Shown in pieces: positions 2-7,111 of a stretch of DNA of 34,269 nucleotides. The DNA comes from Bradyrhizobium sp. STM 3809 (GTDB lineage Bacteria; Pseudomonadota; Alphaproteobacteria; Rhizobiales; Xanthobacteraceae), in NCBI RefSeq assembly GCF_000239795.1, contig NZ_CAFJ01000622.1, forward strand, positions 1 through 34,269, given 5' to 3'. Under the pieces are notes generated by a model that worked only from the letters and a program-made list of their open reading frames with translations, made no database searches and was not told the origin of the DNA. The position numbers were made by a program, and so were the translations under genes. Every line of letters begins with the position of its first letter. Within the stretch, counting starts at the first letter, position 1.

Positions 2-226
2 TGCTGGCATCGCGGCACCCGTGAGATGGACCTGATCCTCGGCCGCTTTGCCGATGCGGAGATCGGGAGCCTCTCCGAGACCGAACTGGCCGAGCTCGAG
101 CAGCTCCTGGAGGTCCCCGACCCCGATTTCTATGCCGCGATCACCGGTGCCAGGCCGCTGCCGCCGGAGCAGACCCCGGCGCTGTTCGAACGCATCAAGG
201 CGTTCCGCGCGGTGGACGCCGGTTGA
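2..226 (+). CDS. sdhE: SdhE, FAD assembly factor for succinate dehydrogenase (5' end outside window)
   Basis: This is the C-terminal part of a small SdhE/DUF339 protein, the factor that helps attach FAD covalently to the succinate dehydrogenase flavoprotein. The reading frame is open from the first bases of the window. It contains the family signature RGTRE followed by MDLILGRFAD, where the RGxxE stretch is the flavoprotein-contacting motif. The start codon lies upstream of the window, so an internal ATG at 26 is not the real start. An acidic helix (ETELAELEQLLEVPD) follows, as in the family. The stop TGA overlaps the mfd start codon by one base, so the two genes are probably co-transcribed and translationally coupled. 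The sdhE-mfd neighbourhood is common in Rhizobiales (family knowledge). Confidence 0.9.
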   Translation, partial: CWHRGTREMDLILGRFADAEIGSLSETELAELEQLLEVPDPDFYAAITGARPLPPEQTPALFERIKAFRAVDAG

Positions 227-3200
227 TGAAGAGCCCGGTCAAGTCGCCCGCCGAGCACCTCGCGCCGGGGCGCGCGCTCACGCTCGCCAATGTCGCGGAG
301 GGCGCCGAGGGCCTGGTCGTCTCCGATCTGGCGCGCGCCATCGCCGCCAGGCCGAAGCCGCCGGCCGTCAGCCTCGCCGTGGTGTGCCGCGACGGCAACC
401 GCATGCAGCAGCTGGCGCGGGCGCTCGACTTCTTCGCGCCGGATCTGCCGGTCATGCAGTTTCCGGCCTGGGACTGCCAGCCTTACGATCGCGTCTCGCC
501 CCATGGCGGCATCCTGGCGCAGCGCGTTACCACGCTGGCGCGGCTGTCGCGCCTCGCCGGCAGCGACAAGCCGCTGATCGTGCTGACGACGGTCAATGCG
601 ATCGTGCAGCGTGTGCCGTCGCGCGACACCATGGCAGGCCAGGCGCTGTCGGTGGCGCCGGGCCATGTCGTGCCGATGGACTCCGTCGTCGCGTGGCTGG
701 AGCACAACGGCTACGTCCGGGCCTCTACCGTGCGCGAGAGCGGCGAATATGCCGTGCGCGGCGGCATCCTCGACCTGTTTCCGGCCGGCCTCGACCAGCC
801 GGTGCGGTTCGACTATTTCGGCGACAGCCTGGAATCGATCCGCACCTTCGATGCCGAGACGCAGCGCACGCTTCTCGACATGCGCTCGCTCGATCTGGTG
901 CCGGTGTCCGAATTCCAGCTCGTCACCGACACCATCCGACGCTTTCGCATGGGCTATGTCGCCGAGTTCGGCGCGCCCGAGCGCGACGACGCGCTGTATG
1001 AGGCGGTTAGCGAGGGTCGCCGCTATCCCGGCATGGAGCACTGGCTGCCGCTGTTCCACGACAAGATGGAGACGCTGTTCGACTATCTGCCGAACACGCC
1101 GATCGTGATCGAGCCGCAGGGCGAGGACGCGGCACGCGAGCGCTTCAAGCAGATCATCGACTATTACGACGCGCGCCGCGAGGCGATGGAGCATCCCGGC
1201 GGCGGCGCGATCTACAAGCCCTTGACGGTCGACCGGCTATATCTGACCTCGACCGAATGGGCCGAACGGCTCGCCGCCGTGCCGCTCGCCCGCGTGACGC
1301 CGTTCGCGGTGCCGGAAGGAGCAGGGGTTGTCGACATCGGCGCGCGCGCCGGCCGCAACTTCGCGCCGGAGCGCAACGACGCCGCGGTCAACGTGTTCGA
1401 GGCTGTCGTGGCGCATGTGCAGGCGCTGCAATCGGTGCGCAAGAAGGTCGTGATCGCGCTGTGGAGCGAAGGCTCGCGCGACCGCATGGCCTCGATGTTG
1501 AAGGATCACAAGCTGATCCACGTCACCAGCGTCAACACCTGGCGCATGGTGCAGGCGACGCCGCGCAACGAGACCATGCTCGCGGTGCTCGGCCTCGAGA
1601 CCGGCTTCGAGACCGACCAGATCGCTGTCATCTCCGAGCAGGACATTCTCGGCGACCGCCTGGTGCGGCCGCGCCGCGCCAGCCGCAAGCTCGACAATTT
1701 CATCTCCGAGGTGACGAGCCTCGCGATCGGCGACATCGTCGTGCATGTCGATCACGGTATCGGCCGCTTCGTCGGGCTGCAGACGCTCGAGGTCGCCGGC
1801 GCGCCGCACGACTGTCTCGAGCTGCGCTATGCCGGCGAGACCAAGCTGTATCTGCCGGTCGAGAACATCGAGCTGCTGTCGCGCTACGGCTCCGACCAGA
1901 CCAATGTCGAGCTCGACAAGCTCGGCGGCCAGGGCTGGCAGACGCGCAAGGCGAAACTCAAGAACCGCATCCGCGAGATGGCCGGCGAGCTGATCAAGAT
2001 CGCCGCCGAGCGCATGCTGCACGAGGCGCCGAAGATGCCGGTGCAGGCCGGCCTCTATGACGAGTTCTGTGCGCGCTTCCCCTATGACGAGACCGAGGAC
2101 CAACTCGCGGCGATCCAGGCGACGCTCGGCGATCTCGAAGCGGGACGTCCGATGGACCGTCTCGTGTGCGGCGACGTCGGCTTCGGCAAGACCGAGGTGG
2201 CGCTGCGCGCGGCCTTTGCCGTCGCGCTCGACGGCAAGCAGGTCGCGGTGGTCGTGCCGACCACCTTGCTCGCGCGCCAGCACGCCAAGACCTTCACCGA
2301 GCGCTTCAAGGGCTTTCCGGTCAACGTTGCGCAGGCCTCGCGGCTCGTCTCAACCAAGGAGCTCAACCAGGTCAAGAAGGGGCTGGCCGACGGCTCGGTC
2401 GACATCGTGGTCGGCACCCATGCGCTGCTCGGCAAGACCGTCAAGTTCCGCGACCTCGGTCTCGTCATCGTCGACGAGGAGCAGCATTTCGGCGTCAGCC
2501 ACAAGGAGCGGCTGAAGCAGCTGCGCGCGGAAGTCCACGTGCTGACCTTGTCGGCGACGCCGATCCCGCGCACGCTCCAGCTTGCTCTGACCGGCGTGCG
2601 CGAGCTGTCGATCATCGCCTCGCCCCCGGTCGACCGTCTCGCCGTGCGCACCTTCGTAGCCCCACATGATCCCGTGATGATCCGCGAAGCGCTGCTGCGC
2701 GAGCGCTATCGCGGCGGCCAGGCGTTCTACGTCGTGCCGCGCATCGACGATCTCGCCGAGGTCAAGGAGTTCCTCGACAAGACCGTGCCGGAGATGAAGG
2801 TCGCCGTCGCCCATGGCCAGATGGCGCCGACCGTGATCGAGGACATCATCTCGGCGTTCTACGACGGCAAGTTCGACATCCTCTTGTCGACCACGATCGT
2901 CGAATCCGGCCTCGACATTCCCCGCGCCAACACGCTGATCGTGCATCGTGCCGACATGTTCGGCCTGGCCCAGCTCTATCAGCTGCGCGGCCGCGTCGGC
3001 CGCTCGAAACTCCGCGCCTATGCGCTGTTCACTCTGCCGTCGACCCACAAGGTCAGCGCACAGGCCGAGAAGCGCCTCGGCGTGCTGCAGTCGCTGGAGA
3101 CGCTGGGCGCCGGCTTCCAGCTCGCCAGCCACGACCTCGACATCCGCGGTGCCGGCAATCTGCTCGGCGACGAGCAGTCCGGCCACATCAAGGAGGTCGG

Positions 3201-3741
3201 CTTCGAGCTCTATCAATCGATGCTGGAGGAGGCGATCGAGAACCTCAAGGCTGGCATCACCGAGCCGACCGTCGACCGCTGGTCGCCGCAGATCACCATC
3301 GGCATGCCCGTGCTGATCCCCGAGGACTACGTTTCCGATCTCTCGGTGCGGCTCTCGCTCTACCGCCGCCTCGCCGATCTCGAGACCGACGAGGAGATCG
3401 AGAATTTCGCGGCCGAGCTGCGCGACCGCTTCGGCAAGCTGCCGGACGAGACGCGCTATCTGTTCAAGGTCGCCGCGATCAAGAACTACTGCCGGAGAGC
3501 CAATGTCGAGAAGGTCGACGCCGGCCCGAAGGGCGCCGTCATCGCCTTCCGCGACAACAGCTTTGCTTATCCGGATCGCCTGGTCGCCTTCATCAAGCGC
3601 CACGGCCAGGCCGCCAAGGTGCGCCCCGACATGAAGGTGGTGTTCCTGCAGGTCTGGGAGACGCCGGAGGAGCGGTTGGCCGGCACGACGGATATTCTCA
3701 AGGAGCTGGCGGAGCTCGCGGAGAAGAAGAAGGCGGCGTAG
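226..3741 (+). CDS. mfd: Transcription-repair coupling factor Mfd
   Basis: Mfd is a DNA translocase that removes RNA polymerase stalled at lesions and recruits UvrA for nucleotide excision repair. The 1171-residue product is full length for the family. In order it has an N-terminal UvrB-like module, a CarD-like RNA-polymerase interaction domain at about residues 490-585, and a RecG-type SF2 motor with Walker A GDVGFGKT at 649-656 (Lys655) and DEEQ box at 750-753. The RGRVGR motif VI and the C-terminal TRCF autoinhibitory domain (about 1010-1171) follow. I chose the ATG at 226, which overlaps the sdhE stop; a TTG one codon upstream is less likely. Codon use is uniform and there are no frameshifts. 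Function is very secure. Confidence 0.98.
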   Translation: MKSPVKSPAEHLAPGRALTLANVAEGAEGLVVSDLARAIAARPKPPAVSLAVVCRDGNRMQQLARALDFFAPDLPVMQFPAWDCQPYDRVSPHGGILAQRVTTLARLSRLAGSDKPLIVLTTVNAIVQRVPSRDTMAGQALSVAPGHVVPMDSVVAWLEHNGYVRASTVRESGEYAVRGGILDLFPAGLDQPVRFDYFGDSLESIRTFDAETQRTLLDMRSLDLVPVSEFQLVTDTIRRFRMGYVAEFGAPERDDALYEAVSEGRRYPGMEHWLPLFHDKMETLFDYLPNTPIVIEPQGEDAARERFKQIIDYYDARREAMEHPGGGAIYKPLTVDRLYLTSTEWAERLAAVPLARVTPFAVPEGAGVVDIGARAGRNFAPERNDAAVNVFEAVVAHVQALQSVRKKVVIALWSEGSRDRMASMLKDHKLIHVTSVNTWRMVQATPRNETMLAVLGLETGFETDQIAVISEQDILGDRLVRPRRASRKLDNFISEVTSLAIGDIVVHVDHGIGRFVGLQTLEVAGAPHDCLELRYAGETKLYLPVENIELLSRYGSDQTNVELDKLGGQGWQTRKAKLKNRIREMAGELIKIAAERMLHEAPKMPVQAGLYDEFCARFPYDETEDQLAAIQATLGDLEAGRPMDRLVCGDVGFGKTEVALRAAFAVALDGKQVAVVVPTTLLARQHAKTFTERFKGFPVNVAQASRLVSTKELNQVKKGLADGSVDIVVGTHALLGKTVKFRDLGLVIVDEEQHFGVSHKERLKQLRAEVHVLTLSATPIPRTLQLALTGVRELSIIASPPVDRLAVRTFVAPHDPVMIREALLRERYRGGQAFYVVPRIDDLAEVKEFLDKTVPEMKVAVAHGQMAPTVIEDIISAFYDGKFDILLSTTIVESGLDIPRANTLIVHRADMFGLAQLYQLRGRVGRSKLRAYALFTLPSTHKVSAQAEKRLGVLQSLETLGAGFQLASHDLDIRGAGNLLGDEQSGHIKEVGFELYQSMLEEAIENLKAGITEPTVDRWSPQITIGMPVLIPEDYVSDLSVRLSLYRRLADLETDEEIENFAAELRDRFGKLPDETRYLFKVAAIKNYCRRANVEKVDAGPKGAVIAFRDNSFAYPDRLVAFIKRHGQAAKVRPDMKVVFLQVWETPEERLAGTTDILKELAELAEKKKAA

Positions 3742-3893: not shown

Positions 3894-3929
3894 CCTCAGT
3901 CGGTCTGGAATCTCAGCAGACGACTGAGG
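3894..3929. other. Stem-loop downstream of the LCAT-like hydrolase
   Basis: The left arm CCTCAGTC-G-GTCT pairs with AGACGACTGAGG to give a 12-bp stem with one bulged G and an 11-base loop. It begins about 20 bases past the hydrolase stop codon. Neither strand has a clear T tract after it, so it is a poor intrinsic terminator. It could instead be a 3'-end stabiliser or a processing site between the hydrolase and the small downstream ORF. Confidence 0.5.
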
Positions 3930-3949: not shown

Positions 3950-5350
3950 TCAACGTGTCCCGCGCAGCGGCGCAAGTCCGGGCTGGGCATTGACGAAGAA
4001 CACGGCGCTCGATGATGGGCTCGTCTTGTGCGTGTCGCCCTCGAACCGCATCACATAGGCTCCAGGCTGGCGCGGGGCGGTCCAACGCGCCGGGATGTGC
4101 GTGATCTCAGGTCCCTGATAGTCCAGCGGCAGCGCCGCGCCATAGGCGACGAGAGCCGCCTTGGCGGCACCGCTTCGCGCGCCCGGACGGGGCGCCGCGC
4201 TGACGGTCAGCCGCCCCTTGATGGTGGTGGTTGGCGTGTCCGGGATGATCAGCATCTGCATGGACTCGCCGGGTGCAAAGCTGTGCTTGTGAAGATTGAT
4301 CGTGATGCCCGGCTCGGCCATCAGGAACGCCCGCATGCGCGACAGGCCGAAGATCTCGTCCAGCGCATCCGACAGCTGCACCGTGCCGAGAATTCCGACA
4401 TGGCTGCCCGGCATCGAATATTTTCCGGAATAGCTGCCGGCAAGGGCGCTGTAGACGGGCACCGTACCGTCGCCGTCGACCGTGATCGTCTCGACAAACT
4501 CGGTGCCGCGATAGACATAGGCATTGGAGGTGCTGAGGCCCGTGCCGGCGATGAGATAGTATGTGACATGGGCCGGCCGCTGCGTGATGTCGAGTTGCTG
4601 CCATGAGGTCGCTGCCGCCAGCGCACTCGAGGCCGTCAGCTCGTATTTTCCGGCCACGGCAGGGTCGTACACGTCCTGCTCCGGAGGCGTGAGGCTGGTG
4701 TCGAGCAGGACATCTGTCTCGGGCGTCGGAAAGCACTGGAAGCAGGCCGGGTATCTCGGATCGTTGGCGACGGTTCGCAAATCGTCTCGGCTCATGCCGA
4801 GCGAGCCGGCTTCGCAACCCAGCGCCTGGCCCAGAGCGGTCGCAGCGCCCAGATGCGGCCCGCAGAGGCAGATCAGACGCGTGATCTTTCCGAACCACGG
4901 CTCGTTCCGGTATCTCTGGCTTTCGAGCATCAGCCGAGCCACCAGATTGCCCATGGAATGGCAGACCAGGGTGATCGTCGTCGCCCCATCGTGAACGGCC
5001 TGCGCGATACGCCGGGCCAGCATCTCGGACGAGGCGACGAACGGCGCGTTCGCCTGCCACAGATCGACACGCCAGTCATAGTAGAAGTCGATGCGGTTGG
5101 CCGCCGGGGAGAGCCGCGCTGCGATCTCATCCAGCTTGGTCATGATCGGGCGATAGACAGGGTAGGTGTAGCCGTCGAACACCGGAAGCTCGGCCCATAT
5201 CCCGGTCGCCGTCGCGCTGGGATCGCGCAGCTCGCCGATCCGGTGGTAGCCCTCCCAGACGATTTCGTCGATCGTCGGCGGCCATACCTGGGTCTCACCG
5301 ATGCTGAGGCACGAGCCCGTGATGCCGGGGACCAGAATGATCGTTTCCAT
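3950..5350 (-). CDS. LCAT-like alpha/beta hydrolase (putative lipase or acyltransferase)
   Basis: The 466-residue product resembles lecithin:cholesterol acyltransferase-type hydrolases. The N-terminus opens directly on the first strand and oxyanion region (LVPGITGS). The nucleophile elbow is CHSMG at 130-134, with Ser132 as the likely nucleophile. A DGDGTVP segment at 292-298 supplies the likely catalytic Asp, and GSHVGIL (His317) the His. These are the expected order and spacing for this family. About 130 residues after the catalytic His form a predicted beta-rich tail of unknown role. No signal peptide is visible, so it appears cytoplasmic, which is unusual for a lipase. The start ATG has the SD GGGAGAG four bases upstream, but that SD is buried in a hairpin (see 5355-5420). 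The substrate cannot be read from sequence. Confidence 0.75.
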   Translation of the reverse strand: METIILVPGITGSCLSIGETQVWPPTIDEIVWEGYHRIGELRDPSATATGIWAELPVFDGYTYPVYRPIMTKLDEIAARLSPAANRIDFYYDWRVDLWQANAPFVASSEMLARRIAQAVHDGATTITLVCHSMGNLVARLMLESQRYRNEPWFGKITRLICLCGPHLGAATALGQALGCEAGSLGMSRDDLRTVANDPRYPACFQCFPTPETDVLLDTSLTPPEQDVYDPAVAGKYELTASSALAAATSWQQLDITQRPAHVTYYLIAGTGLSTSNAYVYRGTEFVETITVDGDGTVPVYSALAGSYSGKYSMPGSHVGILGTVQLSDALDEIFGLSRMRAFLMAEPGITINLHKHSFAPGESMQMLIIPDTPTTTIKGRLTVSAAPRPGARSGAAKAALVAYGAALPLDYQGPEITHIPARWTAPRQPGAYVMRFEGDTHKTSPSSSAVFFVNAQPGLAPLRGTR

Positions 5351-5354
5351 CGAT

Positions 5355-5420
5355 CTCTCCCTGGTGCTTCGACCGGCCGCGTTGTCCTGTCGACGGCCGG
5401 TCCCTCACTGCCAGGGAGAG
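5355..5420 (-). promoter_or_regulatory. Nested hairpin sequestering the hydrolase ribosome binding site
   Basis: Reading the minus strand, CTCTCCCTGG (5420-5411) pairs perfectly over 10 bp with CCAGGGAGAG (5364-5355). Nested inside, GACCGGCCG (5402-5394) pairs perfectly over 9 bp with CGGCCGGTC (5379-5371), with a 14-base apical loop and an internal loop of 8 and 6 bases. The 3' strand of the outer stem is the Shine-Dalgarno sequence of the hydrolase, with the ATG four bases further on. If transcribed, the folded leader would hide the SD behind an anti-SD-like CUCUCCC strand. This suggests translational control (thermometer- or ligand-like), or a DNA operator. The remaining intergenic DNA up to 5661 is AT-richer and holds no gene I can support. 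Confidence 0.6.
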
Positions 5421-5661
5421 GCTATGTGTATTCAAAAAGAAAAACAATCTGAAATTGTGTGTCTTTTGTTGGTCATCAGCAGGGGCTCACGGCAAGATCG
5501 CTGACGCGCTCGAGGCCGGCTCTCGAACTGACGCTCATCGTCGCGCCCGATCACGAGCCTCGAACCGGTGGGCACGGCGCAAACTGATAGCTTGTATGTC
5601 ACAAGACTTTGTATGCAGTACGACGTCGGCAATCTGAATGGGTGCGGGCTGATCTTGATTG

Positions 5662-5743
5662 CGTCATTGCGAGCGTGGCGAAGCTATCCAGGGCGTCGGT
5701 GGGCCTCTGGATTGCTTCGCTGCGCGCTGCGCTCGCAATGACG
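5662..5743. repeat. Palindromic intergenic repeat (REP-like)
   Basis: The outer arms CGTCATTGCGAGC and GCTCGCAATGACG are perfect complements. Inner segments (AGCTATCCAG and CTGGATTGCTTCGC) also largely pair, giving an imperfect 82-bp palindrome. I recognise this from general experience as an abundant interspersed repeat in Bradyrhizobium and relatives, often mis-translated as peptides beginning RHCERGEAIQ. The other copies lie outside this window, so repeat status cannot be shown here. It sits just downstream of the degenerate GGDEF gene, where it may act as an mRNA 3'-end structure. Confidence 0.7.
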
Positions 5744-5765
5744 TAGGACGAGCTGTGCCTCGATC

Positions 5766-6998
5766 TCACGACGCCGCGCGGTGCGGCTCGCCGTACACGC
5801 GGGCCAGCAGCGTCCGCGCCGTGTCATTCGGCTGCAGTGCCGCCACCGTGATCGACGGCTCGTGCCGCGTGTCGCGCTTGCCGTGGGAGGTGTGGCGCAT
5901 CACGCTGGAGAGGCGGCGGGCGATGGCGTGGGCGGAGCGGAGGTCGGTTTCGGCGAACACGACGACGACGGAACCGTTGTCCTCATGGGTGCCGAAGTCC
6001 ATCCGCCGCATCAGGCGGCTGATGATGCGGGCGCCGTCATATTGGGCGCGCGGGTTGACCGGGTCGAAGGCGAAACGGGCGACCGCAAGGCTGCCGCCGC
6101 TCTTCTGGGTCTGGCTGACGGCGGTGGCGAAATCGCGCGCGAAGGCGTTGCGGGTGAGGAGACCCGTTTGCGGGTCGAGCATGCCGCCGGCTTCGATCGC
6201 GCGCAGGGTGCGGTTGAGACGGCTCTCGAAGGCGTGCTGGCGGATCAGGGGCAGCGCATGGGCCGCGATGCGCTGCGGATCGCCGGCGATGATCTCGAGA
6301 TTGGCGAGCTCCTGGAACGGCGCCGGCTGGTTGGCGGTGACGACAACGCCGAGATTGCGGAAGCGGGTGTCCTCGGCGAGCACCGCGAGAAAGGCATCGA
6401 CGACGCGCGGCGAGAAGCCTTCGCCGAGCACGATGCCGTCGATGTCGCGGCTCGACAGATGCTTGGCGGCCGCCTCGATGCTGAGCGCGCCGACGACCGC
6501 CATGCGCTCGCCGAGCGCGACCGACAGTCCGGGCATCGAGGCGCCGCGGCCGAGCAGCAGCACGGTGGCGTCGTTGAGCGGATCGGTGTCAGGCAGCACG
6601 GCGTCCGGCGTCTTCTTTTCGTCGAGGCGCCGCAGCACAGTCGTGTGCAGCGTGCGGACGCGCAGCGCGGCGCGCAGCCGCGCCAGCAACCGCTCGTGGT
6701 TGTCGCTGCCGTGCAGCGGAATGGCATTGTCGGGCAGAGCGGCGTCGCCCGGCGCGATCGCGATCATCGGGATGTAGGGCTTGCGCGCGCTGACATGCTG
6801 CGACAGCGCGGCGACGTCGGCGGCATCGGCGCCCTCCATCAGGGCGAGCACGGCCGCCGGCTGGACCCGCGAGATCGCATGGGGCGCATCGGCCCAGCGC
6901 GCTTCGGTGGTCGGGAGAATCTGCGCTGCGGCGAGGGCTGCCGTCAGCGAAGGCCGCGTGGACGGAGAGACGATCAGAAGCGGGCCTTGTTGGGACAT
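5766..6998 (-). CDS. Receiver-like protein with degenerate GGDEF domain
   Basis: The 410-residue product has alternating alpha/beta segments with no clear membrane helix. It ends in a recognisable GGDEF fold whose entry reads DPQTGLLTRNAFARDF, the usual start of diguanylate cyclase domains. The catalytic GG(D/E)EF is absent: the equivalent place reads HEDNGSVVVVFAETD, so cyclase activity is very unlikely. The upstream two thirds look like two receiver-like modules without convincing phospho-acceptor motifs. I take ATG 6998; the TTG one codon upstream is an alternative, and no strong RBS is visible. It is the last of three minus-strand genes after the ANL-like protein. A role as a c-di-GMP-related sensor or scaffold is inference. 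Confidence 0.65.
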   Translation of the reverse strand: MSQQGPLLIVSPSTRPSLTAALAAAQILPTTEARWADAPHAISRVQPAAVLALMEGADAADVAALSQHVSARKPYIPMIAIAPGDAALPDNAIPLHGSDNHERLLARLRAALRVRTLHTTVLRRLDEKKTPDAVLPDTDPLNDATVLLLGRGASMPGLSVALGERMAVVGALSIEAAAKHLSSRDIDGIVLGEGFSPRVVDAFLAVLAEDTRFRNLGVVVTANQPAPFQELANLEIIAGDPQRIAAHALPLIRQHAFESRLNRTLRAIEAGGMLDPQTGLLTRNAFARDFATAVSQTQKSGGSLAVARFAFDPVNPRAQYDGARIISRLMRRMDFGTHEDNGSVVVVFAETDLRSAHAIARRLSSVMRHTSHGKRDTRHEPSITVAALQPNDTARTLLARVYGEPHRAAS

Positions 6999-7111
6999 CA
7001 AGAGGAACTCAGGATACGCTGACGATACGTCGCGATCCTAGGTCGCTCCCGTTAACGCGGCGTCAACACTGTTCCAAACACGCCCGCTCCGCATTCGTCC
7101 GGACGGCAGCT

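Follow-up and report, generated by a model that had tools for sequence, protein, structure and literature searches.

Results

An LCAT-like hydrolase gene of narrow distribution

The window analysed here, a 34,269-nt stretch of Bradyrhizobium sp. STM 3809 (contig NZ_CAFJ01000622.1), encodes on its minus strand an alpha/beta hydrolase that matches the LCAT family PF02450 with an E value of 1.1e-10, over the family cut-off; a search by sequence for solved structures of the protein returned none at E up to 0.01. The ATG at 5350-5348 is the earliest ATG, GTG or TTG in the hydrolase frame, and the N-terminus METIILVPGI can be read from the DNA of all four close orthologues. The gene and the hairpin at its start comprise the following features.

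3950-5350, minus strand: LCAT-like alpha/beta hydrolase gene, 466 aa, with its ATG at 5350-5348
5420-5411, minus strand: 5' arm of the outer stem, the anti-SD CTCTCCCTGG, exact reverse complement of 5364-5355
5402-5394, minus strand: 5' arm of the inner stem, GACCGGCCG, pairing exactly with 5379-5371
5379-5371, minus strand: 3' arm of the inner stem, CGGCCGGTC, 9/9 bp with 5402-5394
5364-5355, minus strand: 3' arm of the outer stem, CCAGGGAGAG, which includes the SD GGGAGAG (5361-5355), 10/10 Watson-Crick pairs

Matches to the hydrolase at E 1e-20 or better were found in 8 of 265 genus genomes. Four of these are close orthologues, including the window's own (protein identity 98% in G100, 85% in SSBR45G and 74% in STM 3843), and the other four share 32–37% identity. 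A family sample of 391 genomes contained nine with a match, seven of them already among the genus matches, and added no close orthologue, and a search of plasmid DNA returned no match. The gene's flanks are syntenic between the window and each of SSBR45G and STM 3843. We take the bradyrhizobia that carry the hydrolase to be related to Aeschynomene symbionts.

Several neighbouring features were recorded. Immediately 3' of the hydrolase, a hairpin CCTCAGTCG...CGACTGAGG with no T tract (3894-3929, minus strand) separates this gene from the convergent mfd gene (223-3741, plus strand; TIGR00580) and is possibly a shared transcript end. For the upstream gene (5766-7001, minus strand), Pfam gave no match at E 0.001 and NCBIfam only PleD, weakly (E 3.2e-5, far under the cut-off); its product is perhaps a degenerate GGDEF-type protein. 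Also upstream of the hydrolase lies a palindromic element, CGTCATTGCGAGCG...CGCTCGCAATGACG (5662-5743), whose 19-nt arms are 89% complementary. It looks like a dispersed repeat, because the matching stretch in SSBR45G (L017 6650-6757, ~80% identical) sits downstream of the hydrolase instead of upstream.

The ribosome-binding site lies in a rare nested hairpin

An earlier note, made from the sequence of this DNA, had described perfect outer and inner stems of 10 and 9 bp, with the SD in the 3' strand of the outer stem four bases ahead of the ATG. Both stems pair without exception, and on the minus strand the SD is followed by ATCG and then by the start codon, as described. The strand facing the SD, CUCUCCC, is likewise the anti-SD that had been claimed, and the layout is right for transcripts that start at or upstream of ~5420. 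Directly 3' of the main hairpin a second, small one is predicted, AUCG-AUGGAAA-CGAU (5354-5340, minus strand), with the ATG in its loop.

The hairpin is stronger than base composition predicts. The 83-nt segment 5422-5340 has a fold energy of −43.7 kcal/mol (z −5.16). Dinucleotide shuffling (200 sequences) gave −26.8 ± 3.3 kcal/mol, and none of the shuffles folded equally well. The background for further comparison was a set of 762 gene starts taken from the window and from 60 stretches of 20 kb from G100, called without annotation from a long open frame, third-position G+C and SD score, which is a crude criterion; an SD of at least four letters was recognised at 554 of them. A perfect stem of at least 10 bp ends within the last 20 nt before the start at 8 of the 762 starts and covers a recognised SD at three, and only the hydrolase (1/762) has such an SD-covering stem enclosing a perfect inner stem of at least 9 bp. 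The rarity of this nest makes coincidence an uncomfortable explanation. The cost of opening the SD, computed so that all other rearrangements of the leader are allowed, is 17.8 kcal/mol for a 71-nt hydrolase leader and ranks 8th of 762 (background median 7.7, 90th percentile 13.1 and 95th percentile 15.0 kcal/mol), a rank that, extrapolated linearly, would put dozens of starts this closed in a genome with several thousand genes. Of 3000 leaders with their 5' 52 nt shuffled, 0.03% reached the native opening cost and 0.13% the native outer stem.

The hairpin region is single-copy, with no further genomic copies found by similarity search. An origin as a dispersed repeat (REP/MITE) or mobile palindrome was rejected, the best other match of a 121-nt query having an E value of 0.41 (G000). 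DNA matches to the leader occur in 5 of 257 genus genomes, and two of these are the hydrolase gene itself. The candidates for leader copies at other genes were also rejected: L024 and L025 have no such hairpin and are seemingly coding or unrelated sequence, and the part common to L023 is a 25-nt stretch of the upstream block described below. A literature search for a sequestered SD in Bradyrhizobium returned no match.

A conserved promoter-like block abuts the hairpin

Directly upstream of the hairpin lies a second conserved element, from which a transcription start can be predicted.

5457-5421, minus strand: promoter-like block CAAyTTyCrATTG-N16-CACATAGC, 37 bp, present in all four close orthologues
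5416-5412, minus strand: predicted transcription start zone, 4–8 nt past the hexamer CATAGC, from a pattern scan

The block ends at 5421, against the 5' arm, and its internal spacing is fixed in all four orthologues. Window and SSBR45G agree at 27 of its 37 positions and window and STM 3843 at 24, levels reached in none of 2000 shuffles each. Between the divergent species, similarity upstream of about −40 is at chance, with 2–9 matches per 20 nt in bins wholly upstream of the block. Past the block, the first 20 nt (5' arm included) match the window ungapped at just 9 positions in SSBR45G and 9 in STM 3843. We infer that the block is the hydrolase promoter.

The block holds TTG (5447-5445)-N18-CATA (5426-5423), in which CATA has three of the four bases of a TATA box. 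Transcription is expected to start 4–8 nt past a −10 hexamer, which would place the start inside the 5' arm, in a zone of pyrimidines up to G5412, and give a leader of 62–66 nt. TTG-N(16–18)-TATA with three of four TATA bases matches twice in the 415-nt intergenic region when the gene strand is read, the other match having its TTG at 5632. The −10-like hexamer CATAGC is a poor box, and a simple sigma-70 and terminator scan of 5200-5800 found no promoter-like site or intrinsic terminator. For B. japonicum, PMC4842269 gives TTG-N(16–18)-TATA as the RpoD motif, to which the block comes close. According to the same study, neither of its promoter motifs is present at 67% of its starts, and a typical leader is 20–40 nt long, a range that the predicted hydrolase leader exceeds (PMC4842269).

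A regulon sharing the block was considered and rejected: the degenerate composite pattern fits without mismatch at a single place in the genome, the window's own. With up to two mismatches the relaxed pattern fits at 68 places, including the window's own, compared with 20 for a reversed control. At the upstream edge of the block is a dyad, CAAT-N5-ATTG (5457-5445), which reads CAACTTTCGATTG in SSBR45G and STM 3843 and is possibly an operator at −35; in another genome, L023 carries a 25-nt stretch, 96% identical, around this dyad.

The computed strength of the lock depends on where transcription starts

With the block placed against the hairpin, which is the new fact at this locus, the transcription start is the deciding quantity. 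A leader beginning at 5420 has a computed opening cost of 18.7 kcal/mol, which drops to 14.0 at 5417, 12.9 at 5416, 9.6 at 5414 and 9.0 at 5412, and SD exposure rises from 0.01 to 0.43 between 5420 and 5412. The SD is computed to lie inside a stable stem if transcription starts at or upstream of ~5420, and no longer does so for a start at 5414 or later. From the first base past the block to the first G, the cost drops from 15.0 to 8.2 kcal/mol in the L010 leader and from 15.2 to 9.8 in SSBR45G (TTCCCTG), while STM 3843 declines only slightly over the same range, at background level. The inner hairpin keeps leaders that are cut at 5414 or 5412 more stable than their shuffles (z −3.1 and −2.8).

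The earlier note had required a start upstream of the hairpin, and the conserved block speaks against this, as it predicts one within the 5' arm. With this start zone in the pyrimidine-rich arm, the main transcript most likely begins at ~5416-5412 and would have just 2–6 of the ten bases that make up the outer stem's 5' strand. The lock would then be moderate to absent: the inner hairpin would form, the SD would be covered only in part, and the hydrolase would probably be expressed in the ordinary way, perhaps modestly.

The lock is retained in some orthologues

All four close orthologues have a purine-rich SD. Beside the window, the lock occurs in L010 and SSBR45G (98% and 85% protein identity); STM 3843 retains block and SD and has none. 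The fold z scores are −5.2 for the window, −3.0 for L010, −2.9 for SSBR45G and +0.5 for STM 3843. When transcription is set to begin on either of the block's last two bases or on the base just after it, opening costs are 15.5–18.7 kcal/mol in the window, 12.1–15.0 in L010, 15.2–17.7 in SSBR45G and 8.0–9.3, the background level, in STM 3843. Among distant homologues (six loci, 32–37% identity), the leaders of L013, L014 and L016 cost 10.5, 10.0 and 8.0 kcal/mol, near background.

In the alignment, only two stem substitutions separate the window from L010, and both change G-C to G-U. The SSBR45G leader differs ungapped from the window at 21 of the 52 positions of its 5' portion and still has a strong lock; in a gapped alignment 52 of 74 columns are identical, and the SSBR45G 5' arm retains TTCCCT. 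A simulation of 3000 trials fixed the SSBR45G 3' tail and scattered 21 random substitutions over the window leader's first 52 nt; 33% of the leaders retained an outer stem of 8 bp or more and 2.9% reached the SSBR45G opening cost, a P of 0.029 that is optimistic because the 21 substitutions come from the ungapped comparison and indels explain part of the difference. Across the three-sequence alignment 91.2% of cells pair, compared with 38–55% when the partners are slid. Covariation amounts to one two-sided change, a value reached by 172 of 500 shuffles and so at control level in a test of low power with three sequences, and the RNAalifold covariation term is slightly unfavourable (+0.24). The expectation that orthologues would preserve the stems by compensatory change is partly contradicted: one of the three orthologues, STM 3843, has the SD but no stems, and covariation in the rest does not exceed the control. 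In its favour, SSBR45G has a strong lock despite its divergence, at the optimistic P given above. Together these comparisons weakly suggest constraint on the lock.

Temperature and known RNA families

The earlier note had proposed that translation of the hydrolase depends on temperature, a ligand or a trans-acting RNA. Folding across temperatures contradicts the first: with a start at 5423, the share of the SD predicted to be unpaired is 0.55% (25 °C), 0.9% (42 °C), 1.0% (45 °C) and 2.5% (60 °C), or 0.006 to 0.025 as a fraction. No Rfam family matches in the window at the gathering threshold. In 5290-5520, a search at E up to 10 gave 11 matches, all under their gathering scores and with no thermometer family among them; they are to eukaryotic microRNA, snoRNA, lncRNA, archaeal snoRNA and plant-virus promoter hairpin models.

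ROSE elements, which are present in Bradyrhizobium, carry a U(U/C)GCU motif that pairs imperfectly with the SD; when the pairing was perfect, as in one variant, reporter activity was lost, and that variant was considered too stable for melting (PMC3669281). The layout of the hydrolase hairpin, with its SD in a stem, resembles theirs, but the strand opposite the SD lacks U(U/C)GCU and any imperfect pairing, with CUCUCCC set within 10/10 pairs, and the gene is an LCAT hydrolase (PF02450), no heat-shock gene. The earlier remark that the hairpin does not look like ROSE is borne out, and a thermometer, which is very improbable, was rejected on the absence of predicted melting.

Discussion

Readings of the hairpin

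We tentatively favour, while holding it at somewhat less than even confidence, the reading in which a narrowly distributed LCAT-like hydrolase gene has an ordinary short 5' leader with a partial lock. It accounts for a block that is conserved in all four orthologues and ends at the arm, for the divergence that begins past the block, and for STM 3843, which has block and SD without the lock; it also agrees with opening costs that fall close to the background median once the predicted start is used. Against it, the start is predicted from a poor −10 box, and a start only 4–8 nt farther upstream would bring back the full lock. The SSBR45G lock, stronger than in 97% of simulated leaders and with TTCCCT retained in the arm when gaps are allowed, and the uniqueness of the perfect nest among background starts also sit uneasily with an ordinary leader, as do leaders that still outfold their shuffles when shortened. 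If instead the full 5' arm is transcribed, the hairpin may permanently lower hydrolase translation without acting as a switch. We regard this static lock as somewhat unlikely. Window starts from 5422 to 5420 leave the SD unpaired at 1% or less, and the lock survives in L010 and SSBR45G, with both L010 substitutions turning G-C into G-U; yet the predicted start lies inside the arm, STM 3843 has no lock, and a permanently silent gene would be unlikely to retain an intact frame in four species.

A different use of the same geometry would be gating by the choice of start, as at pyrC and pyrD. The start zone is the pyrimidine run CTCTCCCT followed by GG, and the run doubles as the anti-SD, so that initiation on the pyrimidines 5420-5417 would give a locked mRNA and initiation on G5412 or G5411 an open one, with nucleotide pools or a regulator setting translation through the start. 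The steep fall in opening cost across these few bases in three leaders is what such gating would need, but the starts are predicted, the promoter assignment is weak and STM 3843 lacks the feature. No link of the hydrolase gene to nucleotide pools is known to us, and we consider the proposal, in which the polymerase on a lipase-like gene would lock or open the mRNA by where it begins, quite unlikely. In E. coli pyrC and pyrD, initiation with CTP leads to an mRNA hairpin that blocks the ribosome (PMC7818426). Less probable again is a switch on a fully transcribed arm, opened by a ligand, a protein or a trans-acting RNA. The layout and the strong fold in three of four close orthologues speak for it, whereas an ensemble with the region from SD to start open is less favourable by 12.1–18.7 kcal/mol when transcription begins at 5422, at 5420 or at the corresponding bases of L010, and gene and leader occur as close orthologues in just 4 of 265 genus genomes. 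The ligand control that the earlier note had suggested loses further ground with the structure's absence from STM 3843, and the search for a conserved aptamer gave neither an Rfam gathering match nor covariation above its control in the three sequences. Conditional control of hydrolase translation is possible but supported by the layout only.

Each placement of the start carries its own consequence. Should the mRNA contain the lock, this clade-specific hydrolase would be under a strong hidden translational brake. If start choice gates the lock, alphaproteobacteria would have start-site switching at a gene related to lipids, an extension of the mechanism whose most interesting form, which is speculation, would be a link among CTP supply, phospholipid synthesis and a lipid hydrolase. 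If transcription begins inside the arm, as in the favoured ordinary leader, the locus would advise caution, as SD-locking hairpins read from DNA can disappear once the promoter is placed.

Comparison with known systems

Like ROSE1 of B. japonicum hspA and the short ROSE-like element of Pseudomonas ibpA, the hydrolase leader has its SD in the 3'-proximal hairpin of the 5' UTR. It differs from them in being GC-rich and perfectly paired, in lacking the U(U/C)GCU motif, predicted melting and an Rfam match, and in preceding a hydrolase gene, where ROSE elements precede small heat-shock genes. With translational riboswitches it shares the pairing of anti-SD and SD, but it has neither an Rfam aptamer nor a competing fold of similar energy, and its distribution is narrow. 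Static leader hairpins that sequester the SD also hold it inside a stable stem; here, however, transcription is predicted to start within the 5' arm, and the complete stem may go untranscribed. At pyrC and pyrD, as would be the case here, the 5' arm of the hairpin is the pyrimidine-rich start zone of the promoter, and the stems are shorter than those of the hydrolase hairpin, which belongs to another kind of gene, has an additional inner hairpin and has starts that are predicted. The likeness to pyrC and pyrD of E. coli and Salmonella, whose mechanism is described in PMC7818426, would be a hairpin over the ribosome site that depends on where transcription starts.
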